A stretch of 64,000 bases of DNA, taken from Asterella californica. Taxonomy: Eukaryota; Streptophyta; Marchantiopsida; Marchantiales; Aytoniaceae. The DNA lies in NCBI GenBank assembly GCA_036924285.1, contig JAYKYS010000040.1:222210-286209 (forward strand), read 5' to 3'. How positions within the stretch are numbered: the stretch's first letter is position 1; each line of letters opens with the position of its first letter. Shown here piece after piece: positions 12,196-55,388 of the stretch. A program made the translations under genes and the position numbers. The notes beneath the pieces were generated by a model, which was not told the origin of the DNA, did not search any database, and saw only the letters and a program-made list of their open reading frames with translations.

Positions 12196-12360
12196 CTAAA
12201 AGAGCACGAACATCACCAATTCCATTCGCGAATAATCTACCATAGGTAAAATAAAAGGAAATGGTTGTAACAACACCTCTTGTGCCATCTCTTCTCCCAA
12301 GGTAATCATGAGCCTGAGTCGCATCACCGCCTTCTCCACCATCCGAATGACGATCTCCAT
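12196..12360 (-). CDS. ORF-c of element A, 54-aa hydrophobic peptide between ORF-b and gag
   Basis: This is a short frame of 54 codons whose ATG overlaps the TGA of ORF-b as TGATG. The product starts MEIVIRM, contains an ITLGEE block, and ends in a hydrophobic stretch with PMVDYSRME and a Phe/Leu/Val-rich tail. It is open in A, B and C and recognisable in the diverged element D, where MEIV, TLGE and YSRME are kept. No database family is recognised. Conservation across divergent copies argues that it is coding. The overlap suggests termination-reinitiation, but that is inference. Confidence 0.6.
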   Translation of the reverse strand: MEIVIRMVEKAVMRLRLMITLGEEMAQEVLLQPFPFILPMVDYSRMELVMFVLF

Positions 12361-12836
12361 CACAACTCAGCTGAGTCCTCTTTTGAAGTCGACAACTTCT
12401 CCGTCTCAGCTCTTTGAGTCTCGTCCAACTTCTCGACTACTGATGTAAGTAGGGCGGCCACATCGACGCACTTGTGTCCTCTGGATAGATCACCCACTCC
12501 ACAACTTGGACAAGGATCTTCGCCTAGAAGATGAATTGGTGCTGGTGACGATGGACCCACTCGAAGACTCAAATCAGTAAACTCCCGCTTCCCTTTAGCT
12601 CTCTCGGTTCTGATTCTAGTTGGACAATTCACTACTTTGTGTCCCAACCCTCTACAGAAATAACACCACAAGTCGGTTTCTACTCTTCTCCTCGGAGATT
12701 CTACTTGAGGTTTAGTACTAGGGTTTTCAAACTCGACGATAATCTCTCTCGAACTTTCTCCGACACTTACTATGACATCTAAACCTTGAGGAAGGTTTCT
12801 AAGTCTAACTTTCCAATCTTTTAAATTTCCACTCAT
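12360..12836 (-). CDS. ORF-b of element A, double zinc-motif protein upstream of gag
   Basis: This is an intact frame of 158 codons starting at the Met of MSGNLKDWKVRL. An upstream in-frame Met exists (12,851), but the homologue in D aligns from this Met onward. It carries a CCHC knuckle CYFCRGLGHKVVNC (CX2CX4HX4C), then a TDLSLRVGPSSPAP block, a second Cys/His motif CPSCGVGDLSRGHKC (CX2CX8HXC), and a helical, charged C-terminus. CCHC knuckles bind nucleic acid; the role in this element is unknown. It may act as an RNA chaperone, packaging factor or regulator. It ends in TGA overlapping the ATG of ORF-c. Confidence 0.75.
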   Translation of the reverse strand: MSGNLKDWKVRLRNLPQGLDVIVSVGESSREIIVEFENPSTKPQVESPRRRVETDLWCYFCRGLGHKVVNCPTRIRTERAKGKREFTDLSLRVGPSSPAPIHLLGEDPCPSCGVGDLSRGHKCVDVAALLTSVVEKLDETQRAETEKLSTSKEDSAEL

Positions 12837-12974
12837 GTTGCACCTTCTCAACCATTAAGTGGACAAAATATCATAGAGGAAAATAATTCTACATCACTTT
12901 CTTAACTCTTCCGAGCTTTATATTGGAAATCGTGTATTATACATGCTATACACGAAATAAAATCTAATCTAAAT

Positions 12975-13292
12975 TTAACTATCGAAGATATGATCCTCCT
13001 CACCATCGTTTGTACTAATCACAACAGACATCTTGAACTCACTCTTGTAAAAATCCAACTCTACTTCACCAGGAGCATTCGTGGCCTCCACAGTGAATGA
13101 TGCTTTAATCTCGGCTTTCTTCAAATCTGTGCCAATGGTCGCGGAAGCTTCTTCGTATAAGGTAAAGAGGGCACCCCAAGTGCTATAGATGCGGGTTCGT
13201 AACTCATCTATACTCAACTTGGGCTTCTCCGTCTCTGTTCAAACTCCTAAACGTCTCTTCTTCCACCTCGTCATTCGAACAGGATTCCCCAT
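12975..13292 (-). pseudogene. ORF-a of element A (one nonsense codon)
   Basis: This is the counterpart of the 105-codon ORF-a of B and C. Its ATG lies at 13,292, and an early CGA codon is TGA here, leaving 12,975-13,217 open. The product begins with a basic segment (RWKKRRLGV), continues LSIDELRTRIYSTWGALFTL and ends in an acidic tail. The protein is unrecognised, with no cysteines or membrane segment in the conserved part. It is the first frame downstream of the leader repeats. Confidence 0.65.
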
Positions 13293-13878: not shown

Positions 13879-14157
13879 AAATTTATCTCCTCTAATAACT
13901 CTTCTCTCCTCCTTTCTCTACAACTCTTGTTGCACCCTCTTTCAACTCTCCTCAAACCCTTTCTAAGTGAACAAGATGTAAAGAATGACTTCGAACGCGT
14001 CATATATCACTACGGGATACACGAAAGATTCTAACGTTGCTAACATCGCGTTAGCTCTCTCTCCTCCCAACGTTCTCTCCATGTGCTCTCTCATAATCTC
14101 CTTTTGTCGAATATAGAACTGAACTCTAAACATCGTTCAACGATCCCTTCAAGTGAG

Positions 14158-20100: not shown

Positions 20101-22600
20101 TCTACTTCAATCAAGAAGTCAACCCCTCTTATCCGGAACTGCTCGAGTGTCTCTTGAGTAAACTACTAGCATACATGTGTAGGATTTTTAAGTTCAAGCT
20201 CAATGACCGTTAACTCCATCTGTTGTTGTGAATCAACATGCAATTGGATCGCCACTGGCTTTATCTTCTTAGCCACGGTTTTATACTTGGCTTGTTGACG
20301 AGAGCCACACCATCAGATTATATTCTTCCATCCACTCTCTAGTCTCAGATGAGGACGAGATTGCAAGTACGAGATAATCTCCTCATAAACTTTACGAGTG
20401 GAAGAGGATCACCACACTATCTGCGCTCGCATTCAATGTTGGACGACCTGTGTCAAGTATCTCTCATATGCTCCATCAATCTATCTACTTCGTCTAGCCA
20501 ATGAACAAAAGATTATACGCTTACAAACTCTTCGTACACACCAGAAATCATTTCATCTTCTTTCAAAACTCTTGTACAGTGCAGATCTATCACATGTTTC
20601 TTCATGTACCTCCTACCCTTCCTAGTCAAATCCTTTTGTCGTATAAACTCACTCCAATCATCAAAATTGAAAGTCATCAAACTAAATTTAAAACTATGTA
20701 CATTATATACACTTTCAAAATCTTGAGCATCCTCTTCATCAACCTCTTATGATCCTTCAGTTTGCTCAAGCGAGATTATGATGAAATATTTGTATCTGCA
20801 CTCTTGCTATCTCGTCCTACAAGAGTGAGTTCTGGAAATCTTTACTCTTACAGACGAGAGAATTTCTTAAAATATGTCTATTTCATTCGTGATTCGTACA
20901 ACGATCAAAAAGTGAACAGAACATCTATCATTTGGACTATGGATCCTAGCATAGTGAGATCTGCCATCCATAAGTAAGCTAGTGATATAAGATTGACCAA
21001 GAATGACAAGATACGAAACAAAAGATTGCACGAAAAAATGTTGATCTATTTTCACATCACTTATCTTCATCCTCACATTAGGACAAGCGTCGTGTAGCTC
21101 CTCCTTCTGTTTGTTGGCAGTACGTAGCACCCAACCATGGTTCAGTTTTATCAACCAGTGTTTTCTTCCATACATCTTTTGTGGTATGATATTGATCTCT
21201 TATCCGTGATCAACCAACACAATAATACAAACTTCTATTCGTGTAGCAATCGTAACATCGGGCTCAATGTCTTTTTCTGAAGTCATTATCAGTAGCTGGA
21301 CTTTCTTCGTCAACTTCTTCATCATCAAACTCAATAATGTTGGTATCAACAACCAACGCTTTTTGTTGGTACCTCTTGTCATCAATCTCTTGAAATGCAC
21401 CTTCCCAAATTTTACATCAGTCATAGAAACTCTAATCATATCTATCATTTGATTCTCTATTTGTTCTGACGTCACATGTTTCTTCTGTTTGATGATATCG
21501 ATGATCAACTAGTAAAACTTTTTCTTTGTAATACTAAGAACCTCTCGAAAAGAAAACTCAACTCGTACATCCAGTATCCTCTATTCCAAAATGCTCTTAA
21601 GATCGATAGAAGTTTCAATATCTCTAGTCGACTTGTAAACTAGTCCTTTCTCGTTCTCTTGAACAGTAAATCGCTTATCAACAATCATCAATTTTCGTTG
21701 AGCCTCTACACGTCTTTCATCGGACTTAGTATCAAATTCAAAGACATCTCACAGTCTCTTTTTCTCCACAGAAGCATCTTTCTAATGAACGTGTTTATTC
21801 TCTTCTAAGAATATTTTGATTAATGTAGTGTCTACATGATATGTCCATCTTGTGATCTTATGAACAATCTCAATTCCTCTTTTCAATACCTCAAAAGGAA
21901 CTCCAATGTTATTCTTCTCCAACTTATTCTAGTAACATAAGACTAAAAGAAATTTCAATATACACAATATATATATCAAGTTCACCGGCGATATCATCAA
22001 CGCAGTTATTATTGCAGTCATAATGATCTGAGGTAGATTTTTCATGCTTCTTCATGCAGACCGTGTGCTCAGCAACTCTCTAGTAGAAAAAAAATGTAAC
22101 CTACCGTTCTGGTAGTGTACGACACCGTCTCTTAAAGCAACTTTAAGTTTTTGACAGTCTCTTCGAAGATGAGCTAGATTGTCACACTAGATACATCTAT
22201 GAACATGAGCACCTCCCGAACGTACAGTACCAGTCAACTCTCACATCGTCGGATCAGATCTTCAATTTGGTTCTGTTGACATTGGTTCTCCGTAAATCTT
22301 TAAATAGATATCATTTACAAAAACTATCACAATTGACATCAGAAAGATTGCTGCCGAGACAACAAATCTGAGAACAAGAGTCAAAAGTTGATGTATCGGA
22401 GGAACAACGTGAGATTGAGAGATCACTTCTGCAAACGGACGTCCTCCTGCAATCATTCTTCCTCGTCTCTACCTCGTTAAAACATCCACAACATCTTTGA
22501 CTCTTCCCCGATCAGTAGTGACATCTCTTTCAGCCGATTGATTGTTAACATAAAGCATAAACATCGTGATATCATCGATAACTTACAAGGAAATTTTTTA
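17150..22600 (-). pseudogene. Decayed old-family gypsy gag-pol (relict E)
   Basis: Minus-strand fragments occur in gypsy order. Gag with a knuckle CxxCDNLAHLRRDC (one codon now a stop) is at about 22,160-22,210. RT words RNFIVDHRDVGQIVIRLEE and SEIVVVDHLCDTFERQ are at 19,305-19,460. HYAHVAESLYELLRKEKRF and LRRLNYESQRSMILTVDTS are at 19,030-19,210. The RNase H end LKHIVGKDNPVADMLSWA is at about 18,705-18,770. Integrase includes TDQTTHHTTTDYMPVELM near 17,750-17,800 and the C-terminal VGDWVLVYDSMLKNKHSTLR near 17,450-17,520. Stops and frameshifts occur throughout. No LTRs were recognised at either end. It is the same family as 4,127-5,330 and far older than A and B. Confidence 0.75.
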
Positions 22601-27116: not shown

Positions 27117-27917
27117 TGTTAATCTTGGACCAAGATAACAGTGTTCTATCACACCATAGTATTCCGTTATTTGATTATCTTATAGGTTACTCTAGGTCGA
27201 AGATCCAACTCTAGAGTTATCAAAATTAAGTATAACTAGCTGAGATAGTTATAACTAAGTTAAGGAAACTATTAGAGGTTTCACTATGACACTTGTGACA
27301 AGTGCGGAGCTCCAATATGCTTCTCAAAATATATAACTTTGTCGATCATTGCTGATTAGATACATGACGAAAAGTCATGCACAAATATCTAAAGGTGCTC
27401 CTCAAAAGACATATTAGTTTGTTGTCGTCTTTCTACTTGATAGTATGAAAAGTTAACATTTTGGAAAAGCTAAAGTAGGAGAATTTCTTACTTTGATAAA
27501 GTAAAACAAGTAATGTGTGTGCTATTCTTAAAGTCTTAGTAGTCTTTAAAAGTTTTACTATTTTAGATTTCATACTTATCATGAGTTAACGTAATTTAGT
27601 GAAAGTTACAATGATAAGAAGTTGTGGAGTATATAAGGAGGAATTGAGAGGATAGAAGAGATTTTCATTTTTCCTGTCTATGAGAAAAGTGGCCATTGGA
27701 GACCTTGGGAGTCCTTAAATATTATGCGATGTGATGTTGAGAGTGGTATTGAACTTGTTTGCATGAACACTATTATGAAAAATGATGTGATCATACAGAT
27801 CGGAGGGTTGAGTGAAGTGTGTTACACCCATGGGTGTTACTGAATCTTTGTAATTATGGTGCACTAGTAATCTTAGTCATCTGAGGTACCCTTGGGTGAG
27901 AGATAAGCTGACTTACA
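27117..27917 (+). repeat. 5' LTR of element D (801 bp)
   Basis: It starts TGTTAATCTTGGACCAAGAT, a near-perfect palindrome comparable to the palindromic tip of the A/B/C LTRs, and ends GACTTACA. The part 27,377-27,917 is repeated at 29,641-30,166. A TATA box (TATATAAG) lies at 27,630-27,637. The block TATCAAAATTAAGTATAACT resembles the A/B LTR word TATCAAGTTAGTCATGACT. Confidence 0.75.
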
Positions 27918-27920
27918 TTT

Positions 27921-27939: not shown

Positions 27940-28508
27940 TCGATGCAAAGATTCATATTTTGGGTTTTAGTATGTTTATGTCAGTTTTTGAACATGAGTT
28001 CAAAACCTTTGTACCTCCACTATGTTATAGAGGGCAAGTAAGGTTTCCAAAAAGCTTTATATCTCAGAGAGATCATTTGTAAAGAGAGAATTATGTTGTT
28101 CGGAAGTTGGGGAGGATTTTTGTGAGTTTTTCAGTATGAAATAGTGACCTCTCGAGAAAGAGTTTATAGTTATTCTCATATTTTCAGTTTTCAGAGTTAG
28201 AACTTGCAATCTTCCATGCACATAGCTTGCAAGATAAGCCATGCAGACACCCAAATCATGCATAAATTGATCGAGTAGTAACTTGAATTACTACGTTCAA
28301 AGCAAAGGGGGGTCAAATTTATGATACGTATACTAAAGTGAAAGAGTGAAAGAACTTCAGAATTCTTGGAGAGGATTATGTTCGACCTTTGAGACTCAGA
28401 GTTGACAAGTAAACCTTCTACTTAGTAACGTGAGAGATTGCTAAATGTCGAGTGATCAAAGTGTCAAACAAGCTACTTAATGAGAGAGATGTATGAAAAA
28501 TCATTGCC

Positions 28509-28925
28509 ATGGAAGGTCAGCAAGAGTGGAAATTGAGGTTGAGCAAGATTCTTCAAGGTTATTTGATAATAGTTACTGTTGATCTTGCGAAAGGAGAATT
28601 TTGATTGAAGTTTGAGGAAGAAGTAGAGAATAGTGACAAGAATCTGGAGAAGAACTCGAGGTGTTTCTTGTGTGAAGAAGAAGGACATAAAGTGAGCAAG
28701 TGTCCTACTAAGAATGAACTTTTGCGTGAGCGACAAGGGTTGATAGACTTGAGCTTGCACATAAGTCTCTCTTCACCTAGACAAGACATCATTGATCTTA
28801 CAACCTTCTGTCCTAGATGTGGAGTGGACAGGATTCCAATTAAGCATGAGTGTACCGCAATGGTTGCTTTGTTAGAGACCGTAGCTGAAGGTCTCGAGAG
28901 AATATTGAGTATAGAAACGGAATGA
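28509..28925 (+). pseudogene. ORF-b homologue of element D (one nonsense codon)
   Basis: From ATG 28,509 (MEGQQEWKLRLSK, matching MSGNLKDWKVRLR of A) the frame runs to TGA at 28,923-28,925, with one internal TGA near 28,578. It keeps the CCHC knuckle CFLCEEEGHKVSKC, the IDLSLHISLSSP block and the second motif CPRCGVDRIPIKHEC with identical spacing (CX2CX8HXC). Identity to A/B is low while the motif residues are retained, the pattern expected for a protein once under selection. ORF-a was not found upstream. Confidence 0.7.
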
Positions 28926-28944
28926 GTGAAGACTCCTAGCGAAG

Positions 28945-29136
28945 ATGGAGATAGTCTATCACATGTTAGATAAGATGACCATGAAGGTCAAGCTTATTTC
29001 AACTCTTGGAGAAAACAGAGTTACTATCATCATGAAACAACGAACTTCATTGATGTTTCCATTGATGAACTACTCGAGGATGGAGTCATCTTGTTCATGT
29101 TGTCTTAGAAGAGTCAACTTTTCTATCATGAAATAG
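28945..29136 (+). pseudogene. ORF-c homologue of element D (frameshift near its end)
   Basis: The frame starts MEIVYHMLDKM and keeps STLGE and MNYSRME at the positions of ORF-c in A/B. Past SRME the similarity continues in another frame (…ILFML then stop at about 29,107), so a small indel has extended the open frame to 29,136. The TGATG overlap with ORF-b is absent here; about 20 bases separate the two. Confidence 0.55.
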
Positions 29137-29640: not shown

Positions 29641-30166
29641 GATGCACAAATATCTAAAGATGTTCCTCAAAAGACATATTAGTTTGTTGTCGTCTTCTTA
29701 CTAGATAGTATGAAAAGTTAACTCTTTGAAAAAGCTAAAGTAGGAGATCTCTTACTTTAGTAAAGTAGAACAAGTAATGCGTGTGCTATTCTTAAAGTCT
29801 TAGTAGCATTTAGAAGTTTTACTATTTTGGATTTCGTACTTATCATGAGATAACGTAACTTAGTGAAAATTACAATGGTAAGAAATTATGGAGTATATAA
29901 GGAGGAGTTGAGAGGGTGAAAGAGACTCTCATTTTTCCTGTCTATGCGAGCATTGGAGACCTTGAGAGTCCTTGAGTATTATGCGATGTGATGTTGAGAG
30001 TGGGATTAGAACTTGTTTGTAGAAACGTTATTAGGAGAAACGATGTGATCATACGGATCAGAGAATTGAGTGAAGTGAGCGTGGGTGTAATTAAATCTTT
30101 GTAATTATGGGCACTAGTAATCCTAGTCATCTAAGGTACCCTGGGTGAGAGAAAGGTTGGCTTACA
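29641..30166 (+). repeat. Partial 3' LTR of element D
   Basis: This is a direct repeat of 27,377-27,917 with many substitutions and small indels, joined straight to gag without a purine tract. The first 260 bp or so of the LTR are missing. It ends GGCTTACA. Confidence 0.8.
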
Positions 30167-30732
30167 GTTCAGTGTCAGCGATTAGACTCTCAGTTTATCA
30201 TCCCATGTGCTATTGTACGTCTATAGGTCCACTTGGGAGTTCTCATATTGTAATTAAGCATGTAGACTGCAAGTCTTAGTGTGTGTAGTCAATTAGTCAC
30301 CCATCAGTAGAGCATCTGCTAACTGATGTTCGTCGTTATTCTTGTTATGAAGTAAAGCAGATTTGATACATTCTTAATGTCATCTCATCCGTAGAGCTTA
30401 GGTCTGAAGTGTATTTTCTATAGGTTATGGATCCACGGTCTGCTGTTTTATGAGTTTCTCCCTCTTAGACATCAAACACATCAGTATACGCTTACAGTAT
30501 ATTCGGATGTATGTTTATCAAGGTTTCTCTCGGATAAGATAGTTAAAACAAATCTTCCATAACTCATATCCATATCTGTCATGCGAACATCTAAGTATAC
30601 GCATAATACAGACCAATGTCTCTCAAAATTTCAATCTCTTGTTATTACAAAGAATTTGTCAAGCCTTATACAGTTGTGATTGATCAATGATCAGAATCCG
30701 ACACGAGGGCCCCTAAAAGATCTTACCTTTGC
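30167..30732. other. Unassigned stretch between D and B
   Basis: No coding support. It is continuous with 39,499 onward once B is removed, and might be LTR or flank of the copia relict at 39,855, but I could not show a repeat. Confidence 0.3.
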
Positions 30733-30736
30733 GTAT

Positions 30737-31652
30737 TGTAACGACCTATGTTACACATAGGAAGTTTGTCTATTAGTAAGGTGTTTAGTTCTAACTAAGT
30801 GTTGAGAATGTTTATTTGCTGCCAAAGTACTTTTAGGAGATATCAAGTTAGTCATGACTAGCTAAAAGTTAGTTATGGTTAAACTTAGCTGTACTTTTGG
30901 CAGAATTCAGATATTTGCTAAAGAGTGAGCACTACTATCTTGTCATCTTGTCTAAAAGGTAGAAAGGGGGTGGAAAGTATCCCTTATCTCCTTTTTGACT
31001 TGATATTAGTGGTTGGATTAAAGTTGTGGACTTTGTGGGCATTAAAAACAAGAAGAGATTCCACATGTTTCCTTTTTAGTGGGTCCTAGTGTAGAGGGGG
31101 GGTGGAAATTCGAGATTCCTTGAGAATATTCCAGAATCCTTCTAGAAGTTGTTGACTTTGAAGGAATAAGCCCATGTGAAAAGGTAAAAAGCCCATGTGA
31201 TCAATGCTTTTACCTTAAGTAATATCTTAGTAAAACCCGGTAAAAGTAGTTACGGCTGAGTTACCGGCGGGTACCAAAGTAAAAACCTAGAATGTATAAA
31301 TAGAGGAGTAGAGAAGAGCTCATCATCCTTGTTTTCACATTGTCGTAATGACAACTTGAGTAATATAGAGAGTGTGGGACATTTTTAGCATGTGAGAACT
31401 TGAGAGACGTCGTTAGAATGGAGGATTTTAGTGGATGAGATTATGGAGATTTTAGTTGATAAGTTTGTGGGTGTATGAATGAGAGTGAACTTAGCATTTT
31501 TCCCTTCAAGATTCATGGTGTGCTTCCATCAAAGCCATCAGAGGTGACCCCTGAGTGAGAGACAGGCCCGACAGTTGCAGATTCGTGGATGACGATCGTG
31601 GAGGTTGAGAGATCGGGGGGTAGTTGATCGTTAGGACCGCGGAGGGTTTACA
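30737..31652 (+). repeat. 5' LTR of element B (916 bp)
   Basis: It starts TGTAACGACC and ends GGAGGGTTTACA. A TATA box TATAAATA lies at 31,295-31,302, so transcription likely starts about 30 bp downstream. It is preceded by the target copy GTAT. Confidence 0.95.
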
Positions 31653-31656
31653 TTTT

Positions 31657-31674
31657 TGGTTCCGTTGCCGGACC
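31657..31674 (+). promoter_or_regulatory. Primer-binding site of element B (tRNA-Glu)
   Basis: TGGTTCCGTTGCCGGACC lies four bases after the LTR. It matches the complement of the plant tRNA-Glu 3' end for its first 15 bases, with one G then missing from the following run. Confidence 0.88.
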
Positions 31675-31952
31675 TCACTTGAAGGGATCGTTGAACGATG
31701 TTTAGAGTTCAGTTCTATATTCGACAAAAAGAGATTATGAGAGAGCACATGGAGAGAACGTTGGGAGGAGAGAGAGCTAACGCGATGTTAGCAACGTTAG
31801 AACCTTTCGTGTATCCCGTAGTGATATATGACGCGTTCGAAGTCATTCTTTACATCTTGTTCACTTAGAAAGGGTTTGAGGAGAGTTGAAAGAGGGTGCA
31901 ACAAGAGTTGTAGAGAAAGGAGGAGAGAAAAGTTATTAGAGGAGATAAATTT

Positions 31953-32332
31953 GTGAGTATAGAAATTCTGCTCTCTGGAAAATTTGTACAGTCGCTGTCA
32001 ACTTTTCTGTGAATTTTATTTTCCTGTGAAACTTTCCAGTGTCTTAGATTGGCTGATAACCTATCTAAGACAAAAGAAATCATAGGAAAATGTGGTCTAG
32101 AGAGGAAGCAATGAATTTTCAAAGTTGAGGGGGTCTATTCGTGAGAGTTGAGGAATTCTGTTATCTAAAAAAAATTTACAGTCATTGTCAGATTTTCTGT
32201 GAATTTTATTTTCCTGAGAAACTTTCCAGTGTTTTAGAGTGGCTGATAAGCTATCCAGGACAAAAGAAATCATGAGAAGATGAGGTCTGAAGAGGGAGAA
32301 AGGATTTTTCAAAGTGGAGGGGGGTGACAACC
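31953..32332 (+). repeat. Leader tandem repeats of element B (188 + 192 bp, plus partial third)
   Basis: Unit 1 (31,953-32,140) and unit 2 (32,141-32,332) share TTCTGTGAATTTTATTTTCC, AAACTTTCCAGTGT and GACAAAAGAAATCAT. A partial third unit (TTCTCTGAAAATTTGTACAG) follows to about 32,400. They occupy the same leader position as in A and C. Confidence 0.8.
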
Positions 32333-32539
32333 ATGAGGGAAGTGAAAATATACAAATTTCAGTTCTCTGAAAATTTGTACAGTCATCACCATCTCTTCTG
32401 ATCAGGGAAGTTTCTGTTGAAACTTCATGATTTAGTAGCTTGGAGGTTGAGCTACTGGAGACCACAAAAATCTTGGAGAGATCTCTTACCAACTAAGAGA
32501 TATACGTTTCGGCATACAAGGAGGTCTTGAAGATACGTC

Positions 32540-32857
32540 ATGGAGAATCCAGTTCGAATGACGAGGTGGAAGAAGAGACGTTTAGGAGTTCGAACAGAGA
32601 CGGAGAAGCCCAAGTTAAGTATAGATGAGTTACGAACACGCATCTATAGCACTTGGGGTGCCCTCTTTACCCTATACGAAGAAGCTTCCGCGACCATTGG
32701 CACAGATTTGAAGAAAGTCGAGTTTAAAGCATCATTCACTATGGAGGCCACGAATGCTCCTGGTGAAATAGAGTTGGATCCTTACAAGAGTGAGTTCAAG
32801 ATGTCTGTAGTGATGAGTACAAACGAAGGTGAGGAGGATCATATCTTCGATAGTTAA
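32540..32857 (+). CDS. ORF-a of element B, 105-aa protein of unknown function
   Basis: This is an intact frame starting MENPVRMTRWKKRRLGV (basic), then KLSIDELRTRIYSTWGALFT, a central mixed region with FKASFTMEATNAPGEIELD, and an acidic end (EGEEDHIFDS). No cysteine motif, signal peptide or membrane segment is seen. The same frame is intact in C and has a single nonsense codon in A. I do not recognise the family. It is the first frame after the leader, so it is likely the first translated from full-length element RNA. Confidence 0.7.
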   Translation: MENPVRMTRWKKRRLGVRTETEKPKLSIDELRTRIYSTWGALFTLYEEASATIGTDLKKVEFKASFTMEATNAPGEIELDPYKSEFKMSVVMSTNEGEEDHIFDS

Positions 32858-32995
32858 TTTTAGACTGGATTTTATTTCGTGTATATCATGTATAATACAC
32901 GATTTCCAATATAAAGCTCGGAAGAGTTAAGAAAGTGATGTAGAATTATTTTCCTCTATGATATTTTGTCCACTTAATGGTTGAGAAGGTGCAAC

Positions 32996-33472
32996 ATGAG
33001 TGGAAATTCAAAAGATTGGAAAGTTAGACTTAGAAACCTTCCTCAAGGTTTAGATGTCATAGTAAGTGTCGGAGAAAGTTCGAGAGAGATTATCGTCGAG
33101 TTTGAAAACCCTAGTACTAAACCTCAAGTAGAATCTCCGAGGAGAAGAGTAGAAACCGACTTGTGGTGTTATTTCTGTAGAGGGTTGGGACACAAAGTAG
33201 TGAATTGTCCAACTAGAATCAGAACCGAGAGAGCTAAAAGGAAGCGGGAGTTTACTGATTTGAGTCTTCGAGTGGGTCCATCGTCACCAGCACCAATTCA
33301 TCTTCTAGGCGAAGATCCTTGTCCAAGTTGTGGAGTGGGTGATCTATCCAGAGGACACAAGTGCGTCGATGTGGCCGCCCTACTTACATCAGTAGTCGAG
33401 AAGTTGGACGAGACTCAAAGAGCTGAGACGGAGAAGTTGTCGACTTCAAAAGAGGACTCAGCTGAGTTGTGA
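32996..33472 (+). CDS. ORF-b of element B, double zinc-motif protein
   Basis: 158 codons from the Met of MSGNSKDWKVRLRNLP. An in-frame Met five codons upstream (32,981) is less likely, because element D aligns from the inner Met. The CCHC knuckle CYFCRGLGHKVVNC is at 33,167-33,208, with a basic region around it (RRRVE, RTERAKRKREF). The second motif CPSCGVGDLSRGHKC is at 33,320-33,364 and a charged helix ends the protein. Both motifs are kept with exact spacing in D. The protein is distinct from the Gag knuckle further downstream. A nucleic-acid-binding role is likely from the CCHC motif; everything beyond is unknown. Confidence 0.78.
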   Translation: MSGNSKDWKVRLRNLPQGLDVIVSVGESSREIIVEFENPSTKPQVESPRRRVETDLWCYFCRGLGHKVVNCPTRIRTERAKRKREFTDLSLRVGPSSPAPIHLLGEDPCPSCGVGDLSRGHKCVDVAALLTSVVEKLDETQRAETEKLSTSKEDSAEL

Positions 33473-33636
33473 TGGAGATCGTCATTCGGATGGTGGAGAA
33501 GGCGGTGATGCGACTCAGGCTCATGATTACCTTGGGAGAAGAGATGGCACAAGAGGTGTTGTTACAACCATTTCTTTTTATTTTACCTATGGTAGATTAT
33601 TCGCGAATGGAATTGGTGATGTTCGTGCTCTTTTAG
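33472..33636 (+). CDS. ORF-c of element B, 54-aa peptide overlapping the ORF-b stop
   Basis: The ATG at 33,472 shares its A with the TGA of ORF-b (TGATG). The peptide begins MEIVIRMVEKAVMRLRLMI, has TLGEEMAQE in the middle, and ends in a hydrophobic part with ILPMVDYSRME and a Phe/Val-rich tail, which might insert in a membrane. TAG is at 33,634-33,636. It is conserved in A, C and, more distantly, D. No known family. The gag ATG lies 49 bases downstream. Confidence 0.6.
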   Translation: MEIVIRMVEKAVMRLRLMITLGEEMAQEVLLQPFLFILPMVDYSRMELVMFVLF

Positions 33637-33684
33637 CGAGTAGTTATTGCACGAAAATTGGAAGTGTAGAAGAGTAGTTACAAG

Positions 33685-36600
33685 ATGGAGAAGTTACCAG
33701 TGTTTCATGGGAAGGACAACGAAGATGTAGAACCATTTGTACGAGACTTCAAAAGGGGTTGCATCGGAAACAACGTGAGAAGGAAGGAAGAATGGGTGTT
33801 GTTACTGCCAGAGTTTTTAGAAGATTTTGCTCTTACGTGGTATGATGACCGAGTGAAGAGCAAGACACCTGGGGCAGTTGAGGACACATGGGAGACGTTG
33901 AGTAATGCACTCATCGAAGAATTTCTTCCAGAAGAGAGTTATGAGAAGCTCATGGTGGAGCTTACTCATTTGAAGCAACGAGACGACGAGAAAGTTCGGC
34001 AATATGCCGAAAGGGTGGATAAGTTGGAGCAACGGTTTCGGACGGTCCTACGGAAGAGTGGAGACAATGTGGAGCTAACGATGGCGGGGATTGGAGCAGT
34101 GTTGACCAAGAACTTGGTGGGAGGGTTGAGGCCTTCAATTCGAACCCAGGTGAGGTACGAGAAGCCAGCAACCAAAGCGGAGGCCATCAAGATTGCGACA
34201 AATATGGAAGAGAGTTTGGATGAAGGAGATATCATCCAACCTCATCATGCTGCTCTGGTGTCGACTCCGACTCCTGGTGTAGCCACAACGATCGCACCTG
34301 CACCATCACAATTGGTGATTGCTTCAACGTCAGCTCCTACTCCAACGGTGGTGCCAAGACCGTTTGTCCCAACAACGATGTCTACTGCCACCTCTGATTT
34401 TCATGCCGAGCTGAAGAGCATCACCGATACTCTTGCGGATCTCAAGATAAACGTGGTGCAGTTACGAGAATGGAGGAACAAAGGTGGAGGAGGAGGTCAA
34501 AGAGGTTACGACAACAATCCCAACCGAGGAAATCAAGGTAACTTTGGAGGCAACCAAGGTAACTTTGGAGGAATCACTTGTTGGACGTGTGGAGGTTCTC
34601 ATTTCCAGCGAAATTGTCCTAACAACGGAGCAAGAGGTGCCGAAGCCGTCAGAATGAATGTGGGTGGAGGAAATCCATCACAAGGATGAGACAAGGGGGT
34701 GGCTACTATCGATGTCGTACGAGATCCCATCTACGAGAAAGGAGAGAGTTCAAACTCTTCTCATGCACCGGTGGAGCTTTTAGCTCAAGAAAGGAAAAGA
34801 ACTCGATTTTCTGATGAACCGGTTTTCATGGAGGAGTCAGCAAGTAGAAGTACTCGTTCGAGTAATGTTTCGAGTACACCAAGGGAGCCAAGAAGGAAGC
34901 TGGGGATGGCGGATTTCACCATTTCATCTTCCCAAGCGGGATATGATGTGGTTGAAGATGTGGGTGCTCAGAAAGCCAACATCACTGTTGGACAACTGAT
35001 CGCACTTAATCCCAGCTTACGAAGGGAACTCAGAGGAGGACTGAGTTCTAAGAGAAGCAAGAAGAAGAAACCCAAGAACAAGACATCAAAGTCTGTGGGA
35101 GTTGGTGTGGTGGATGTGCATGCTTCAGAGGTATGCACTAGGGCTTCAAAGATTGAAGTCCGGTTGAATGGTCACTACGTCTCTGACGTATTGGTGGATG
35201 GAGGATCGGCTGTCAACGCCATATCGGAGAGGTTGATGAAGAAGTTGGGGATGGAACCAACTCGCCCGGCTAGCATTGTCGTGGGGATGGCTAACAAGCA
35301 ACGGGTAAGACCTCTTGGTGTGTTAGAGAAGGTGGTCGTGTCTGTGATGGGAGTTCAAACATTAATGTCCTTTCAAGTGTTAAAGGACTCTAGTTATGAT
35401 TTGCTCCTAGGAAGGCCTTGGTTGAGAGCTGTGCGCACCACGGATAGGTGGCACAAGGGATACTTACGGATTGGGCCTAGAGATCATAGAGTGATAGTTC
35501 CTCTCTCGGGTGTTGGAGTTGTGACTTCTGACTCTGATAGACCCACTAGTGATTACTGGGAATCTGATACGGAGGATGATCAGAGTGTATCAGAAGTAGA
35601 TACCGGAGATTCTTATGATCAAGAATCCTCGTCTGAGGACGAAGGATTTGGTCGAGATGAATCATTACATCAGCTTAGTGCTATTGACTTGTTGCCTCGA
35701 CCAGCAGTGGAGAAAGATCCTGACAAAGAAGAGTTGAGTGAGGCAGAGATTGTGAGAAGACTCTCTACCCTGAAGTTTGGTATTAATGTCACTCAAGAGG
35801 AGAAAGGTAGATTCCTAGATATATTTCGAAAATATATCCATGTGTTTGCTTTCAGCTACAAGGATTTGAAGGAGGTGACTCTCGAGACTCATCGAATCGA
35901 ATTGGAGGAGAACGCAAGATCAGTTCGACAGAAGCAGAGAAGGGTCAATCCTACAACAGCAATGATGGTCAAGGAGGAGATAGACAAGTTGAGGGAGGCG
36001 AGTTTCATCTATGAGGTGGAGAACTCAGAATGGGTTTCACCCATTGTGATTGTCAAGAAGAAGAATGGTAAGCTGCGAGTGTGCATAGACTATAAGAAGC
36101 TGAATGCAGTTACCAAGAAGGATTATTATCCTCTACCATTTATAGATGAGATTTTGGAGGAAGTTGCTGGTCATGAGTGGTACAGCTTTGGTGATGGTTA
36201 TAGTGGGTATAACCAAATCAAGATAGCACAGGAGTACCAACAGTTGACTACTTTCACTACTCCTTGGGGAACGTTTGCATTTCGGGTGATGCCATTCGGA
36301 TTGTGTAATGCTCCGGCCACGTTTCAAAGGTTCATGAACAAGGTGTTTGAACCATTCATAGGGAAGTTTGTTCGGGATTTCATTGACGATTTCTGTGTGT
36401 ACGGACGAAAAGAGGACCACTTTGATCATGTGATCAAAGTTTTGCAGCGATTGGAGCAAGCCAACGCTTCTCTAAATCCAGAGAAGTGCATCTTTGGCTG
36501 CGAAGAAGGTCTGCTGTTAGAGCACATCATTTCCAAGAATGGGATTGCGGTAGATCCTGAGAAGGTGAAGAAGATTGTGGATCTTCCATTTCCGATCAAC

Positions 36601-38571
36601 TTGACAAAGTTGAGGCAGTTTCTTGGCATGGTTGGATATTATCGTAGGTTTGTCTTTTCCTTCTCAAACAAAGCAATAGCTTTAACTATGTACATGAAGA
36701 AGGGAGTTGATTTTGACTTGATAGTGCATGATCAGAAGGCAAAGGAAGCATTTGAGGAGCTGAAAAAGGCATTGGTGACAGCTCCTATACTTGCTAAACC
36801 TGAGTGGAGTAAAGCATTTATTCTGTATACGGATGCCTCCAATGTAGCAATCGGATGTACATTAAGTCAGCTAGATGGAGATGGGCATGATCATCCTATA
36901 GCTTATGCTAGTAGGCAGATGGTTCCAGCGGAGAAGAATTACTCCGTGACTGAACGAGAAGGATTAGCGGTGATCTTTGGATTGAAGAAATTCCGACATT
37001 ACTTGCTAGGAGGGAAATTTTCCATAGTCACAGATCACAAGGCTTTAAAGTATATCTTTAATAAGCCTAATGCCGAAGGTCGTATTGCTCGTTGGAAGAT
37101 CCTTCTAACAGAATACGATTATGTGATCGAAGATAGACCAGGGAAAAAGCATGCGAATGCTGATCTTTTGTCGAGGGCTTATGATGATGAGGGAGAAGAA
37201 TCATTTGACGATTCGTTTCCAGACGAGCATCTGATGACCATCACAAGCATTGAGGAGATACCGGACGAGTATAAGGAAATCTGGAGTTTCCTTGCAGATG
37301 GCTCTTTTCCGGAAGGTATGCATACCCGAGAACGTAACGCGTTGATCAAGAGATGCAAACCTTACACCATGGTAGAGGGAATTCTGTTTCATCAAGGAGC
37401 AGATGGGTTACTAAGGAGAGCAGTTGGTCAGAAGGAGGCATTCAAGCTAATGCACGAGTTTCACGACGGAACTGTTTGCGGAGGTCACTTTGCTGGTAAG
37501 ATAACAGCCTTCAAGATTTTGGATGCGGGTTACCACTGGAGAGGGATTTTCAAAGAGTGTTTAGACTATTGCAAAACTTGCGACGTATGTCAAGCATTTG
37601 CTCTGAAGTCTACTAGAACACCTCCGTTAAGATCAATTCCCGTGTTAGGACCATTTGAGAAGTGGGGTATTGACTTTGTAGGTCCTCTTAATAAGACACC
37701 TCGAGGCAATAGATACATTGTAGTCGCCACTGACTATTGTACCAAGTGGGTAGAGGCTAGACCTTTGAGAGAGACCAATGAAACAGAAGTCGGTAGATTC
37801 CTATGGGAGAGGATCATCACGAGATTTGGATGTCCGTTAGAGTTGGTCTCAGATAGAGGAGGAGAGTTTGTAGGGAGCATGACTACTGCTATGCTACAAC
37901 ACTTTTCTATCAAGCCACGAGTAACGACCTCATACAAACCAAATGCTAATGGTCTTGCGGAGAAGACCAATCTTACACTTTGTATGATGCTCGCCAAAGA
38001 TGCTGGTGTTGAGACTGCGAAACATACTTGGGATAAGAGGCTACATGCCATCTTATGGGAGTATCGAACGACAACAAAGACTTCTACTGGGTACTCCCCA
38101 TTTCGACTGGTTTATGGAGTGGAGTCCAAGTTGCCGATCCAATTTGAATTGGATACTTTTCAAACTATTCAACGAAAGTTGAAGAGGTCGAGAGGAGAAG
38201 ACGTGGTCAGATCAAGAAGGGAGCAACTCATGGAGTTGGAAGAGACCCGAGCGGTAGCAATGATCCGGATGGAACGAGCTCAGGCGTATCAAAAGAAGAG
38301 TTACGACAAACGGTTGGGCAAGAGGGAGGTAAAACCTTTTCAAGTCGGAGATTGGGTTATGTTGTATGATGCTATCAGATTCAAGAGGGCTAGGAAGAAG
38401 TTTCTTCCGAGATATTTTGGTCCTTTTGTTGTAGATAAGGTGTGGAGCAACTTCACATATGACCTTCAGGAGCTGGGAGGAAGGAGATTCGATCGGGTCA
38501 ACCATGACAAGTTGAAGTTGTTTCATCGACGGAAGTTCTCTCTTCACTCCGAGGACGGAGCGAAAATTTAG
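33685..38571 (+). pseudogene. gag-pol: Gag-Pol polyprotein of element B, one nonsense codon
   Basis: A single frame spans 1,628 codons without frameshift, broken only by TGA at 34,687-34,689 (CGA in A). Gag: capsid core from ATG 33,685, glycine-rich GGGGGQRGYDNN, and knuckle CWTCGGSHFQRNC at 34,579-34,617. Pol: protease DGGS at 35,197-35,208, RT with FIDD at 36,379-36,390, RNase H TDAS from 36,829 and ADLLSR near 37,158. Integrase has the HHCC region 37,453-37,590 (CKTCDVC), catalytic Asp 37,672, Asp 37,852 and Glu 37,960 (35 residues between the last two, the usual D-35-E), and GPF near 38,411. No chromodomain. The family encodes Gag and Pol as one product, as many plant gypsy elements do. 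Confidence 0.93.
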
Positions 38572-38572
38572 T

Positions 38573-38584
38573 CCGGGGGTAAAA
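38573..38584 (+). promoter_or_regulatory. Polypurine tract of element B
   Basis: CCGGGGGTAAAA lies directly before the 3' LTR and just after the pol stop; it is the same as in A. Confidence 0.8.
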
Positions 38585-39494
38585 TGTAACGACCTATGTT
38601 ACACATAGGAAGTTTGTCTATTAGTAAGGTGTTTAGTTGTAACTAAGTGTTGAGAATGTTTATTTGCTGCCAAAGTACTTTTAGGAGATATCAAGTTAGT
38701 CATGACTAGCTAAAAGTTAGTTATGGTTAAACTTAGCTATACTTTTGGCAGAATTCAGATATTTGCTAAAGAGTGAGCACTACTATCTTGTCATCTTGTC
38801 TAAAAGGTAGAAAGGGGGTGGAAAGTATCCCTTATCTCCTTTTTGACTTGATATTAGTGGTTGGATTGTGGACTTTGTGGGCATTAAAAACAAGAAGAGA
38901 TTCCACATGTTTCCTTTTTAGTGGGTCCTAGTGTAGAGGGGGGGTGGAAATTCGAGATTCCTTGAGAATATTCCAGAATCCTTCTAGAAGTTGTTGACTT
39001 TGAAGGAATAAGCCCATGTGAAAAGGTAAAAAGCCCATGTGATCAATGCTTTTACCTTAAGTAATATCTTAGTAAAACCCGGTAAAAGTAGTTACGGCTG
39101 AGTTACCGGCGGGTACCAAAGTAAAAACCTAGAATGTATAAATAGAGGAGTAGAGAAGAGCTCATCATCCTTGTTTTCACATTGTCGTAATGACAACTTG
39201 AGTAATATAGAGAGTGTGGGACATTTTTAGCATGTGAGAACTTGAGAGACGTCGTTAGAATGGAGGATTTTAGTGGATGAGATTATGGAGATTTTAGTTG
39301 ATAAGTTTGTGGGTGTATGAATGAGAGTGAACTTAGCATTTTTCCCTTCAAGATTCATGGTGTGCTTCCATCAAAGCCATCAGAGGTGACCCCTGAGTGA
39401 GAGACAGGCCCGACAGTTGCAGATTCGTGGATGACGATCGTGGAGGTTGAGAGATAGGGGGGTAGTTGATCGTTAGGACCGCGGAGGGTTTACA
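38585..39494 (+). repeat. 3' LTR of element B (910 bp)
   Basis: It matches the 5' LTR except for a 6-bp deletion (GGATTGTGGAC versus GGATTAAAGTTGTGGAC) and a few substitutions. TATA box at 39,137-39,144. It is followed by the target copy GTAT. Confidence 0.95.
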
Positions 39495-43794: not shown

Positions 43795-44559
43795 GACATC
43801 TCAATCAAAGAGCAAGCTCCGTTGTTGATCGGTTGATTTTTCCGTTCTAGCAGTCTGGCTTCGTGAGCTATCAAGAGTGGTAGGCTGTTTAAACTAGATG
43901 CATCTACGCCTAAGTTACAGGCTGCCATGTATGGACGGAGTGGTCCAGTAGTGTCTGACATTGACATATGGCACAAGCAAATTGAGCACATGAACTTTCA
44001 GACACTACTGGACCACTCTGTCCATACATGACAACCTGTAACTTAGGCGCAGATGGATCTAGTTTAAACAGCCTATCACTCTTGATACCTCGAGCTATGA
44101 TAGTGCTATTCGAATCTTCAATAAAACATCCATCTTTCTTGAAGCGCACTTGCAGATCCTGCTCTATCAACTGTCTTACATATAGCAGGTTTCTAGTCAA
44201 TATGGGTACATGTAAGACATTCCGTATATCAGTAAACGTTGAAATAGGAATGTCAAGTGGAATGTTACCCTTGTGCTGGATCTTGTGCTTGATGTCATCT
44301 CCTGTCACCATAAACTGTGGAGTCTCCACAGGCTCGAGTGAACTAAACCACTCTCGATGGGGAGTCATATGACTGGTGGCGCCAGAGTCTGATCACCCAG
44401 TCAGTCTGTGACTCGAAAGCAGCATAACTCTGATGCGTAGTAATCAGCAACTGCTCCGAATAGACTTGCTCAGTGACTGCATAGCCTTGCTGGTTGCTGT
44501 TACCTTGTTGGGGATTGTTGTCGTGTTGCTGTCTTTGATCGTTCTGTTGTCTTTGATCG
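43795..44559. mobile_element. Copia foldback: plus fragment joined to minus fragment
   Basis: At about 43,795-43,998 the plus strand reads copia GAG-pre-integrase sequence (AIKSGRLFKLDASTPKLQ, DIWHKQIEHMNFQTLL). At about 43,999-44,559 the minus strand reads the related, longer stretch from the zinc-knuckle side through the protease to the same point (MTPHREWFSSLEPVET, RNVLHVPILTRNLLYVRQL). The protease DSGA word is frameshifted. About 100 bp on either side of 43,980 are inverted copies of each other. This is a second copy of the H family, inverted next to the 5' repeat of H. Confidence 0.75.
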
Positions 44560-52486: not shown

Positions 52487-52651
52487 CTAAAAGAGTACGA
52501 ACATCATCAATTCCATTCGCGAATAATCTATCATAGGTAAAATAAAAGAAAATGGTTGTAACAACACCTCTTGTGCCATCTCTTCTCCCAAGGTAATCAT
52601 GAGCTTGAGTCGCATCACCGCCTTCTCCACCCTCCGAATGACGATCTCCAT
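52487..52651 (-). CDS. ORF-c of element C, 54 aa
   Basis: An open frame of the same length as in A and B, starting MEIVIRRVEKAVMRLKLM and containing ITLGEE and MIDYSRME. Its ATG overlaps the ORF-b stop (TGATG). It has survived intact in the most decayed copy. Confidence 0.58.
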   Translation of the reverse strand: MEIVIRRVEKAVMRLKLMITLGEEMAQEVLLQPFSFILPMIDYSRMELMMFVLF

Positions 52652-53116
52652 CACAACTCAGTCGAGTCTTCTTTTGAAGTCGACAACTTCTCCGTCTCAG
52701 CTCTTTGAGTCTCGTCCAACTTCTCGACTACTGACGTAAGTAGGGCGGCCACATCGACGCACTTGTGTCCTCTTGATAGATCACCCACTCCACAACTTGG
52801 ACAAGGATCTTCTCCTAGAAGATGAATTGACGCTGGTGACGATGGACCCACTCGAAGACTTAAATCAGTAAACTTCCGCTTCCTTTTAGCTCTCTCGGTT
52901 CTGATTCTAGTTGGATAATTCACTACTTTATGTCCCAACCCTCTACAGAAATAACACCACAAGTCGGTTTCTACTCTTCTCCTCGGAGATTCTACTTGAG
53001 GTTTTGTACTAGGGTTCTCAAACTCAACGATAACCTCTTTCGAGCTCTCTCCGACGCATCTAAACCTTGAGGAAGGTTTCTAAGTCTAACTTCCAATCTT
53101 TCGAACTTCCACTCAT
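52651..53116 (-). pseudogene. ORF-b of element C (10-bp deletion)
   Basis: The ATG is at 53,116. A deletion of about 10 bp near 53,050 (relative to A and B) shifts the frame, leaving 52,651-52,962 open with both motifs: CYFCRGLGHKVVNY (last Cys now Tyr) and CPSCGVGDLSRGHKC. Confidence 0.75.
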
Positions 53117-53254
53117 GTTGCACCTTCTCAACCATTAAGTGGACAAAATATCTTTGAGGAAAATAACTCTACATCACTTTCTTAACTCTTTCGAGCTTTA
53201 CACTGAAAATCGTGTATTATACATGCTATACACGAAATAAAATCCAATCTAAAA

Positions 53255-53572
53255 TTAAGAGTCCATGATAATATCCTCATGATCATCGTCTGTACTGATC
53301 TTAGCAGACATCTTAAAGTCACTCTTGTAAAGATCACACTCTACTTCGCCAAGAGTATTCGTGGTCTCCACATTGAATGATGCTTTGAACTCAATCTTCT
53401 TCGCATCTGCGCCAATGCTCGCAGAAGCTTCTTGATATAGAGCAAAAAGGGCACCCCAATTGCAATAGATGCTTGATCGCAACGCCTCTATACTTAACTT
53501 TGGCTTTTCCGCCTCCGTTCTAACTCCCAAACGTCTCTTCTTCAACCTCGGCACTCGAACTGGATTCTCCAT
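53255..53572 (-). CDS. ORF-a of element C, 105 aa intact
   Basis: Starts MENPVRVPRLKKRRLGV and keeps the plan of ORF-a in B, but with many residue changes (LSIEALRSSIYCNWGALFAL, tail DDDHEDIIMDS). It is the most diverged ORF-a and yet fully open. Confidence 0.68.
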   Translation of the reverse strand: MENPVRVPRLKKRRLGVRTEAEKPKLSIEALRSSIYCNWGALFALYQEASASIGADAKKIEFKASFNVETTNTLGEVECDLYKSDFKMSAKISTDDDHEDIIMDS

Positions 53573-53779
53573 GAAGTATCTTCAAGACCTCCTTGTATGT
53601 CGAACCGTATATCTCTTAATCGGTAAGAGATCTCTCCAAGATTTTTGTGATCTCCAGTAGCTCAACCTCCAAGCTAGTAACTAATGAAGTTTCAATAGAA
53701 AATTCCTTAATCAAAAGAGATGGTGCTAACTGTACAAATTTTCAGAGAACTGAAATTTGTATATTTTCACTTCTCTCAT

Positions 53780-54160
53780 GGCTTTCAACCCCCTCAACTT
53801 TGAAAATTCATGGCTCTCTCTCCATACCACCTTTTCTCCTGATTTCTGTTGTCCTAGATAGCTTATCAGCCAATCTAAAACATTGGAAAGTTTCTCAGGA
53901 AAATAAAATTCACAGAAAATCTGACAATGACTGTAAACTTTTTCCAGAGAACAGAATTCCTCAACTCTCGCGAATAGACCCCCTCAACTTTGAAAATTCA
54001 TTGCTCCTTCTCTAGACCACCTTTTCCTATGATTCTTTTTGTCGTAGATAGGTTATCAGCCAAGCTACAATCCTGGAAAGTTTTACTGGAAAATAAAATT
54101 CACAAAAAATCTGACAATGACTGTAAAAATTTTTCAGAGAGCAGAAATCCTCAAACTCGA
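53780..54160 (-). repeat. Leader tandem repeats of element C
   Basis: Two units of about 190 bp (about 53,971-54,160 and 53,780-53,970) as in A and B, plus a partial unit toward 53,730. Confidence 0.75.
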
Positions 54161-54445
54161 AAATTTTTCTCCTCTAATAACTTCTCTCTCCTCCTTGTCA
54201 TTGTCAGATTGATTCAAGTTTCATCCCCTTTCAACTCTCCTCAAACTCTTTCTAAGTGAATAAGATGTAAAGAATAACTTCGAATGCGTCATAGATCACT
54301 ACGGGATACACAAAAAGTTCTAATGTTGCCAACATCGCGTTAGCTCTCTCCTCTCCCAACGTTCTCTCCATGTGTTCTCTCATGATCTCTTTTTGTCGAA
54401 TATAGAACTGAACTCTAAACATCTTTCAATGATCCCTTCAAGTGA

Positions 54446-54464
54446 GGTCCCGGCAACGAAACCA
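54446..54464 (-). promoter_or_regulatory. Primer-binding site of element C (tRNA-Glu)
   Basis: On the element strand TGGTTTCGTTGCCGGGACC lies four bases from the LTR. It matches the complement of plant tRNA-Glu over 18 bases with one C-to-T change, and confirms the reading of the sites in A and B. Confidence 0.9.
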
Positions 54465-54468
54465 AAAA

Positions 54469-55388
54469 TGTAAACCCTCCACGATCCCATGATCAACTAC
54501 CCCCCCCCCCCCCGATCTCTCAACCTCCACGATCGTCATCGATGAATCTGCAAATGTCGGGCCTATCTCTCACTCTGAGGTCACCTCTGATGGCTTTGAT
54601 GGAAGCACACCAAGAATCTTGAAGGAAAAAATGCTAAGTTCACTCATTCATACACCCACAAACTTATCAACTAAAAATCTCCATAAACTCATCAACTAAA
54701 ACCCTCCATTCTAACGACGTCTCTCAAGTTCTCACATGCTAAAAGTATCCTACACTCTCTATATTACTCAAGTTGTCATTACAACGATGAGAAAACAAGG
54801 ATGAGGAGCTCTTCTCTACTCCTCTATTTATACATTCTAGGTTTTTACTATGGTACCATCGGTAACTCAACCGTAACTACTTTTATCGAGTTTTACTAGG
54901 ATATTACTTAAGGTAAAAGCATTAATCACATGGGCTTTTTACCTTTTCACATGGGCTTATTCCTTCAAAGTCAACAACTTCTAGAAGGATTTTAGAATAT
55001 TCTCAAGGAATCTCTAATTTCCACCCCTCTTTTACACTAGGACCCACTAAAAAAGAAACATGTGGAATCTCTTCTTGTTTTTAATGCCCACAAAGTCCAC
55101 AACTTTAATCCAACCACTAATATCAAATCAAAAAGGAGATAAGGGATACTTTCCACCTCTTTTCTACCTTTTAGACAAGATGACAAGATAGTAGTGCTCA
55201 CTCTTTAGGAAATATCTGAATTCTGCCAAAAGTACAGCTAAGTTTAACCATAACTAACTTTAGCTAGTCATGACTAACTTTATACCTCCTTAAAGTACTT
55301 GGGCAACAAATAAACATTCTCAACACTTAGTTATAACTAAATATTTTACTAATAGACAAACTTCCTATGTGTAACATAGGTCGTTACA
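54469..55388 (-). repeat. 5' LTR of element C (920 bp)
   Basis: A full LTR with the palindromic tip at 55,388. A run of 14 C at 54,500-54,513 replaces the six C of A. Many substitutions relative to the 3' LTR. Confidence 0.94.

Follow-up and report, generated by a model that had tools for sequence, protein, structure and literature searches.

What is encoded between the primer-binding site and gag in a Ty3/gypsy family of the liverwort Asterella californica? The question is raised by a stretch of 64,000 nucleotides (assembly GCA_036924285.1, contig JAYKYS010000040.1, positions 222,210 to 286,209 of the forward strand), referred to here as the window. It contains three long copies of a single such family (B in the plus orientation, A and C in the minus one), together with D, a deletion derivative related to them. 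The 2.0-kb leader of B before gag holds four open reading frames (ORFs) in the sense orientation, ORF-0, ORF-a, ORF-b and ORF-c (Table 1). A first-pass annotation had described a cassette of three, ORF-a, ORF-b and ORF-c, in B and at the matching places in A and C. All three are present there, ORF-a being stopped in A and ORF-b frameshifted in C, but the membership has to be redrawn as ORF-0 had been overlooked and ORF-a was found only in the B type. We think it reasonably probable that the 5′ region of this family is a protein-coding accessory set, with ORF-b as its core and ORF-0 and ORF-c as a pair, which would be translated from a polycistronic RNA.

The conserved leader ORFs

ORF-b would encode a small protein with an N-terminal segment, a basic stretch carrying a CCHC knuckle, and a second CX2CX8HXC site. 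A profile of ORF-b (A, B and D) was compared with 5.8 billion proteins, of which 665 candidates shared words with it, and a single protein was returned at E ≤ 10. This was R1flu_028741 (P0002) of Riccia fluitans, which has 154 residues, is 50% identical (E 1.5e-29), has both Cys/His motifs and belongs to a cluster of nine; with the single ORF-b sequence as query no protein in the database matched at E ≤ 0.001. The copy searches described here were run in the 516.7-Mb, 773-contig genome that contains the window, and intact copies were counted among best-scoring matches, so that the counts are biased towards intact copies. With the Riccia protein as query 3436 candidates were obtained and, of the best 150 scored, 135 had no internal stop in the matched part. 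The matches fell mostly into two size classes, subfamily E with an open frame of 159 residues and the B type with 163–164. The stop-free piece of the D ORF-b led to subfamily F, ∼80% identical to D; the best 150 rows of 3162 candidates were all without a stop, one row being D's own place. Both Cys/His sites, the basic middle and a GPSSP block are common to ORF-b of B, E, F and Riccia. The CX2CX4HX4C motif is also retained in D, where ORF-b has in-frame stops but keeps its Cys/His spacing; in C two deletions near the start cause the frameshift. In the PDB the sequence profile search weakly matched TUT7, Lin28 and retroviral nucleocapsids, with the knuckle at the centre of the matches, and RNA binding is the likely function of the predicted protein. 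The first-pass annotation had spoken of a double zinc-motif protein; with ORF-b of E and F the Pfam zf-CCHC model falls short of its cut-off by ∼1 bit.

The cassette DNA itself gave 2407 first-look candidates, the best 40 of which were scored and were 98–100% identical. For 20 of these near-identical copies, taken with A, B and C, the count of intact frames is 22 of 23 for each of the four ORFs; among 30 E copies it is 25 for ORF-0, 26 for ORF-b and 27 for ORF-c. Breakage in most non-degenerate elements of related genomes, or a ratio of nonsynonymous to synonymous rates (dN/dS) near 1 between subfamilies, was what the annotation had named as refuting its proposal, and neither was seen in the material covered here, the copy sets being best-scoring ones. 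A further 20 copies (L059–L078) were picked by eye from the matches to the Riccia protein, odd lengths first with some of B type, and stand outside the intactness counts; 12 of them are E-like, with ORF-0 detected in 11 of the 12 and ORF-c in nine. ORF-0 as query gave 5195 candidates and the best 150 scored all encode the same 56 residues, hence at least 150 such copies exist. The family is abundant, with thousands of candidate copies. Six cassette copies at G000:C2:7985749-8026692 are spaced by 7850–7860 bases, about one internal region plus one long terminal repeat (LTR), and probably form a tandem array of elements that share LTRs. Three more at G000:C32:6445433-6527784 lie exactly 40334 bases apart and probably reflect tandem duplication of a segment that contains the element.

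Codon-level comparison between B and E, with E represented by copy L029, gave an excess of third-position changes in ORF-0, ORF-c, ORF-b and gag. For ORF-0 the differences at first, second and third positions are 7/5/34 of 56 codons (dN 0.092, P 2e-11), with 8 of 56 residues changed and synonymous sites saturated; for ORF-c they are 14/7/28 of 54 (dN 0.209, P 3e-5), for ORF-b 59/49/83 of 156 (dN 0.434, dS 1.76, dN/dS 0.25, P 9e-5) and for gag 90/66/168 of 310 (dN 0.275, P 4e-18). At the protein level ORF-0 and ORF-c therefore change less than gag and ORF-b more. Third positions of ORF-b also differ most between B and F (60/60/99) and between E and F (70/51/88). At the closer distance between B and C, the differences in ORF-0 are 10 synonymous and two nonsynonymous (dN/dS 0.04), a nonsynonymous share so low that none of 20000 neutral simulations reached it, whichever of three transition biases was assumed. 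ORF-b has 14 synonymous and seven nonsynonymous (dN/dS 0.14) where neutrality predicts that 15–16 of the 21 would be nonsynonymous; the simulated P lies between <5e-5 and 4.5e-4 depending on the assumed transition bias. These comparisons show purifying selection at the amino-acid level on the predicted products of ORF-0, ORF-b and ORF-c, that on ORF-c being detected between subfamilies, and ORF-0 is the most conserved predicted protein of the cassette. Past purifying selection had been proposed for the original cassette; the further subfamilies back it for ORF-b and ORF-c, and ORF-a has no clear constraint. Divergence between B and C along the leader (window 52490-54490 in C) is uneven, at 7% in ORF-0, 12% in the leader repeats, 19% in ORF-a, 5% in ORF-b and 4% in ORF-c, for which recombination between subfamilies may be one explanation.

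The proteins of ORF-0 and ORF-c were found, in a search of the window, to align over 46 residues with 35% identity (E ∼2e-6). The alignment scores 79 while the maximum among 5000 shuffles was 49, none reaching 79, and other frame combinations gave 13–34. First, second and third codon positions agree in 22, 28 and 16 of 46, a pattern of descent at the protein level. The alignment shows the two predicted proteins to be duplicates, i.e. paralogues. Between B and D the in-frame ORF-c score is 97 and the other frames give 20 and 14; as the first-pass annotation had noted, D keeps MEIV, TLGE and YSRME along with ORF-b. No significant match to ORF-0 was found in the D leader, and neither ORF-0 nor ORF-c has a match in Pfam. 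The last third of both proteins is hydrophobic, with a best 19-residue hydropathy of 1.3–1.9 that is borderline for a membrane segment, and their models are helical with a mean predicted local distance difference test (pLDDT) score of 66, a moderate confidence. Statements on F beyond ORF-b rest on two copies, L079 and L080, in which ORF-b is open, ORF-0 is absent and a truncated ORF-c matches over 27 residues only. Loss of ORF-0 along with most of ORF-c is expected of partners and suggests that the two may work together, the two copies being of one lineage and counting as one event. At the place of ORF-0, F has a different ORF of 70 codons (L079 375-587), interrupted in L080 and degenerate in D (window 27971-28080). 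Fusion of ORF-c to gag by readthrough was considered and ruled out: the B spacer has a further in-frame stop and the C spacer differs from it by one base in length.

Expression, function and the alternatives

In the model that we favour, the core of the accessory set would be ORF-b, a small two-site zinc protein found in each subfamily examined (B, E and F). It would be accompanied in B and E by two proteins of ∼55 residues, that of ORF-0, close to the primer site, and that of ORF-c, which adjoins gag. The RNA driven by the LTR would be polycistronic. In B and in all of the 30 E copies the stop of ORF-b shares bases with the start of ORF-c (TGATG), and ORF-c might be reached by stop-start coupling there or by leaky scanning through an AUG-poor ORF-b. 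Two internal AUGs are present in ORF-b of each of B, E and F, where shuffles have 4.6–5.4, and an internal Met is absent from B, E and F (up to the ORF-c start) and from Riccia; ORF-0 and ORF-c are not depleted of AUG in the shuffle test. The stretch from the ORF-c stop to gag, 48 nucleotides in B and 53 in E, is free of AUG in both, and gag might be reached by reinitiation across this gap of 48–53 nucleotides. Stop-start coupling is known in caliciviruses and also in non-LTR retrotransposons. Upstream ORFs that are poor in AUG occur in badnaviruses (PMC5902531, in part). More speculatively, ORF-b could bind the element RNA and aid its export, packaging or translation, and the products of ORF-0 and ORF-c could pair and act through their hydrophobic tails, perhaps at a membrane or on Gag. 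The further proposal of a set ahead of gag resembling that of complex retroviruses, with a two-site zinc RNA-binding protein and a duplicated hydrophobic pair made from one unspliced polycistronic RNA, one of the proteins held tighter than Gag, is tentative, and we consider it somewhat less likely than not.

A number of observations weigh against the accessory set. The zinc knuckle of ORF-b does not reach the Pfam zf-CCHC cut-off of 20.8 bits in B (14.3), Riccia (15.0), E (19.7) or F (20.0), no Pfam family is above cut-off for any of the four ORFs, and the structure model of ORF-b is unusable (mean pLDDT 40). Structural support for the ORF-0/ORF-c pair is also weak, a fold search with the model giving no match at E ≤ 0.001, and the two F copies do without ORF-0, which must then be dispensable in some subfamily. 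Between B and C, ORF-c has one synonymous and six nonsynonymous differences, which are too few and do not depart from neutrality. The controls in the same pair gave dN/dS of 0.84 for gag and of 0.21 and 0.95 for two pieces of pol, indicating that differences between B and C include neutral decay. Among B, A and the 20 near copies, where divergence is shallow, variable columns at the three codon positions give no signal for ORF-0 (4/3/3) or ORF-b (8/6/10); for ORF-c they are 3/1/9. As to expression, ORF-b of F overlaps the ORF-c start by 29 nucleotides rather than as TGATG, and the depletion of AUG in ORF-b is weak (P 0.10, 0.04 and 0.06 for B, E and F in dinucleotide shuffles and 0.03, 0.20 and 0.09 in codon shuffles). 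Lastly, ORF-0 of B is preceded by nine AUGs counted from the presumed start site, so that plain scanning cannot account for it and one has to appeal to shunting, to an internal entry site or to splicing.

These many upstream AUGs are one reason to ask whether the ORFs are instead exons that splicing joins into accessory messages, in the way of complex retroviruses, making the polycistronic appearance misleading. The ends of ORF-0 and ORF-c in B resemble, by eye, pyrimidine tracts before AG, and the accessory protein CERV of the Caenorhabditis elegans element Cer1 comes from a spliced RNA (PMC10309623, in part). However, ORF-0, ORF-b and ORF-c each retain their own ATG and stop in B and E, and the available text of PMC1142308 gives introns upstream of gag as unreported in LTR retroelements as of 2005. 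Reading the ORF ends as splice acceptors is weakened since the pyrimidine-rich end of ORF-0 is absent, by eye, from E. Splicing is accordingly an unlikely explanation, though it is not a negligible one.

ORF-a could be a fourth functional accessory gene that evolves fast in the manner of restriction antagonists. Its frame is open in B and C alike at a divergence of 18.6%; it is among the ORFs intact in 22 of 23 near copies and has a mild third-position excess in them (variable columns 8/3/11). Its 59 differences between B and C are, however, 17 synonymous and 42 nonsynonymous, giving a dN/dS of 0.60 with a bootstrap interval (0.30–1.26) that includes 1 and a simulated P of 0.08–0.38. ORF-a is interrupted by an in-frame stop in A and could not be recognised in D; in the 20 copies picked by eye it was found in sense in 8/8 B-like and 0/12 E-like copies, being stopped or split in four of the former (L064, L073, L074 and L077); ORF-b is stopped in one of the eight (L072). 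E-like L069 gave one weak antisense match (E 0.001), and there was no meaningful score in L029 or the two F copies. ORF-a is shown by these comparisons to be an extra of the B type, outside the predicted conserved set, and that it is nevertheless functional seems improbable to much the same degree as splicing.

Could ORF-b simply be a duplicate of the nucleocapsid of the element, made a second time outside Gag? It shares the CX2CX4HX4C spacing with the knuckle in gag, and nucleocapsid entries occur among its weak profile matches. The match between ORF-b and gag is nevertheless one short knuckle, and inspection of gag by eye, short of a full comparison, revealed neither the second site nor the N-terminal segment nor the GPSSP block. 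We regard this origin as somewhat less likely than either of the foregoing. Finally, it is very improbable that the small ORFs are cis-acting upstream ORFs that tune gag translation by position with irrelevant peptides: their shortness, their placement ahead of gag, the TGATG overlap and the AUG-free gap would suit this, but position alone would not hold second codon positions as seen in ORF-0 and ORF-b, and it accounts neither for amino-acid-level selection on ORF-0, ORF-b and ORF-c nor for the Cys/His sites kept in Riccia.

Element B and its surroundings

Table 1. Leader ORFs, element B and related copies (window coordinates).
Feature	Position	Strand	Remarks
Element B	30737-39494	+	∼8.8 kb; LTRs run TGTAAC to TTTACA
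5′ LTR of B	30737..31652	+	TGTAAC...TTTACA; TATAAATA at 31295
Primer-binding-site-like TGGTTCCGTTGCCGG	31657..31671	+	same in E and F copies read
ORF-0	31698..31868	+	56 residues; begins 41 bases past primer site start
Leader tandem units	31952..32323	+	two, ∼190 bp, 82% alike; B type; third partial copy to ∼32430 by eye
ORF-a	32540..32857	+	105 residues; found in B type only
ORF-b	32996..33472	+	158 residues; CX2CX4HX4C zinc knuckle and CX2CX8HXC motif
ORF-c	33472..33636	+	54 residues; Met-rich, hydrophobic-tailed
gag	33685..34689	+	Retrotrans_gag (Pfam); own CCHC knuckle, read from translation
pol (protease, reverse transcriptase, RNase H, integrase)	34699..38571	+	gag frame
3′ LTR of B	38585..39494	+	
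ORF-a, ORF-b, ORF-c of A	12196..13292	-	ORF-a with stop; ORF-b, ORF-c intact
ORF-0 of A	13963..14133	-	intact
ORF-a, ORF-b, ORF-c of C	52487..53572	-	ORF-a open; ORF-b frameshifted near start; ORF-c intact
ORF-0 of C	54252..54422	-	intact
ORF-b relic and ORF-c of D	28509..29107	+	in-frame stops in ORF-b
LTR-like repeats of D	27377-27920 and 29642-30169		aligned parts

Element B is a young Ty3/gypsy element, having LTRs, a primer site, gag and the order protease, reverse transcriptase, RNase H, integrase. Its LTRs differ by three substitutions and six gap columns and those of A by one difference in 917, the LTRs of the family being ∼0.92 kb long; the 4-bp target duplication is GTAT at both ends of B and GTAC in A. 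An in-frame stop separates gag from pol in B and is missing from A and C, ruling out readthrough of this stop as a feature of the family. In Pfam no chromodomain was listed at E ≤ 1 for pol of B, which sets it apart from the chromovirus clade. There was also no additional (archaeal-type) RNase H of the kind that marks Tat/Ogre elements, pol matching RT_RNaseH models only and the small ORFs none. With gag as query the protein database gave a single partial protein, 48% identical, among 1896 candidates, and no relatives of pol, gag or ORF-b were found in viral contigs.

Predicted folding of the leader repeats is more stable than that of 20 shuffled sequences (z -2.75). By eye, a block (TACAGTCGCYGTCA...TTTTCTGT) of the units at 31952-32430 seems to recur once in the E leader; it may be a conserved non-coding element, repeated in the B type. 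RNA folding near the primer site gave nothing (z +0.99), and scans of the window with Rfam (gathering scores) and for tRNAs were empty. Elsewhere in the window are a relic of a different, distant gypsy pol (17704-21253, minus strand; pieces of 24–28% identity, some weak) and Ty1/copia fragments with Pol_BBD and RVT_2 (43910-44368, minus strand, and 56859-57506, plus strand).

Comparison with known systems

Extra sense ORFs before gag are already known as a kind in plant elements such as Ogre, as the first-pass annotation had correctly stated. They are described in the accessible text of PMC6317226 as highly divergent and of questioned function, and the additional ORFs of plant elements lie most frequently between pol and the 3′ LTR (PMC7264820, in part). 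No report of the present cassette was found in the searches made of the open-licence literature. Its significance is that three short leader ORFs have the marks of selected proteins, one more conserved than gag, in a family with thousands of candidate copies. A 2019 survey counted only extra ORFs of at least 250 codons (PMC6317226, in part); such a floor would not count genes of this size, and small accessory genes may be commoner than thought. The system is testable given a liverwort host with laboratory relatives.

Among the systems known in part from the sources cited, the Ogre/OTA elements likewise have a long leader, in which an extra ORF in forward orientation lies between the LTR and gag, and non-coding tandem repeats (PMC6317226, PMC1142308). 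Ogre has a single ORF of 550 codons there, whereas this family has ORFs of 54–158 codons and a pol without additional RNase H. A plant mobile domain is found in the extra ORF of 57% of Ogre elements (PMC6317226) and Pfam gave none in ORF-0, ORF-a, ORF-b or ORF-c, which sets them apart from the Ogre type. ORF0 of Retrosat2, RIRE3 and RIRE8 in grasses is also a sense ORF upstream of gag-pol with an unclear role, and it evolves faster than gag-pol (PMC3485330). By description only, the Retrosat2 type has one ORF and ∼3 kb LTRs and is confined to grasses, whereas there are three conserved ORFs and ∼0.92 kb LTRs in the liverwort. The Phygy/Selgy polyprotein fills nearly the whole internal region (PMC6317226), unlike an element with a 2.0-kb leader. 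Tat elements of mosses and clubmosses (Selaginella) come from non-seed plants too and have a separate ORF before gag; that ORF is an RNase H (aRH; PMC10508981), to which ORF-0, ORF-a, ORF-b and ORF-c have no match.

The remaining likenesses are of layout and role. ORFs I and II of badnaviruses and tungroviruses are likewise small, AUG-poor and placed before the polyprotein, with short leader ORFs (PMC5902531, in part); the likeness drawn here is one of layout, the present family being an integrating LTR element with an integrase and a weak AUG depletion. CERV of Cer1, which is made from spliced RNA and is likened here by description and not by sequence, is also an accessory protein of a gypsy-type element and is needed for export of the genomic RNA (PMC10309623, in part).

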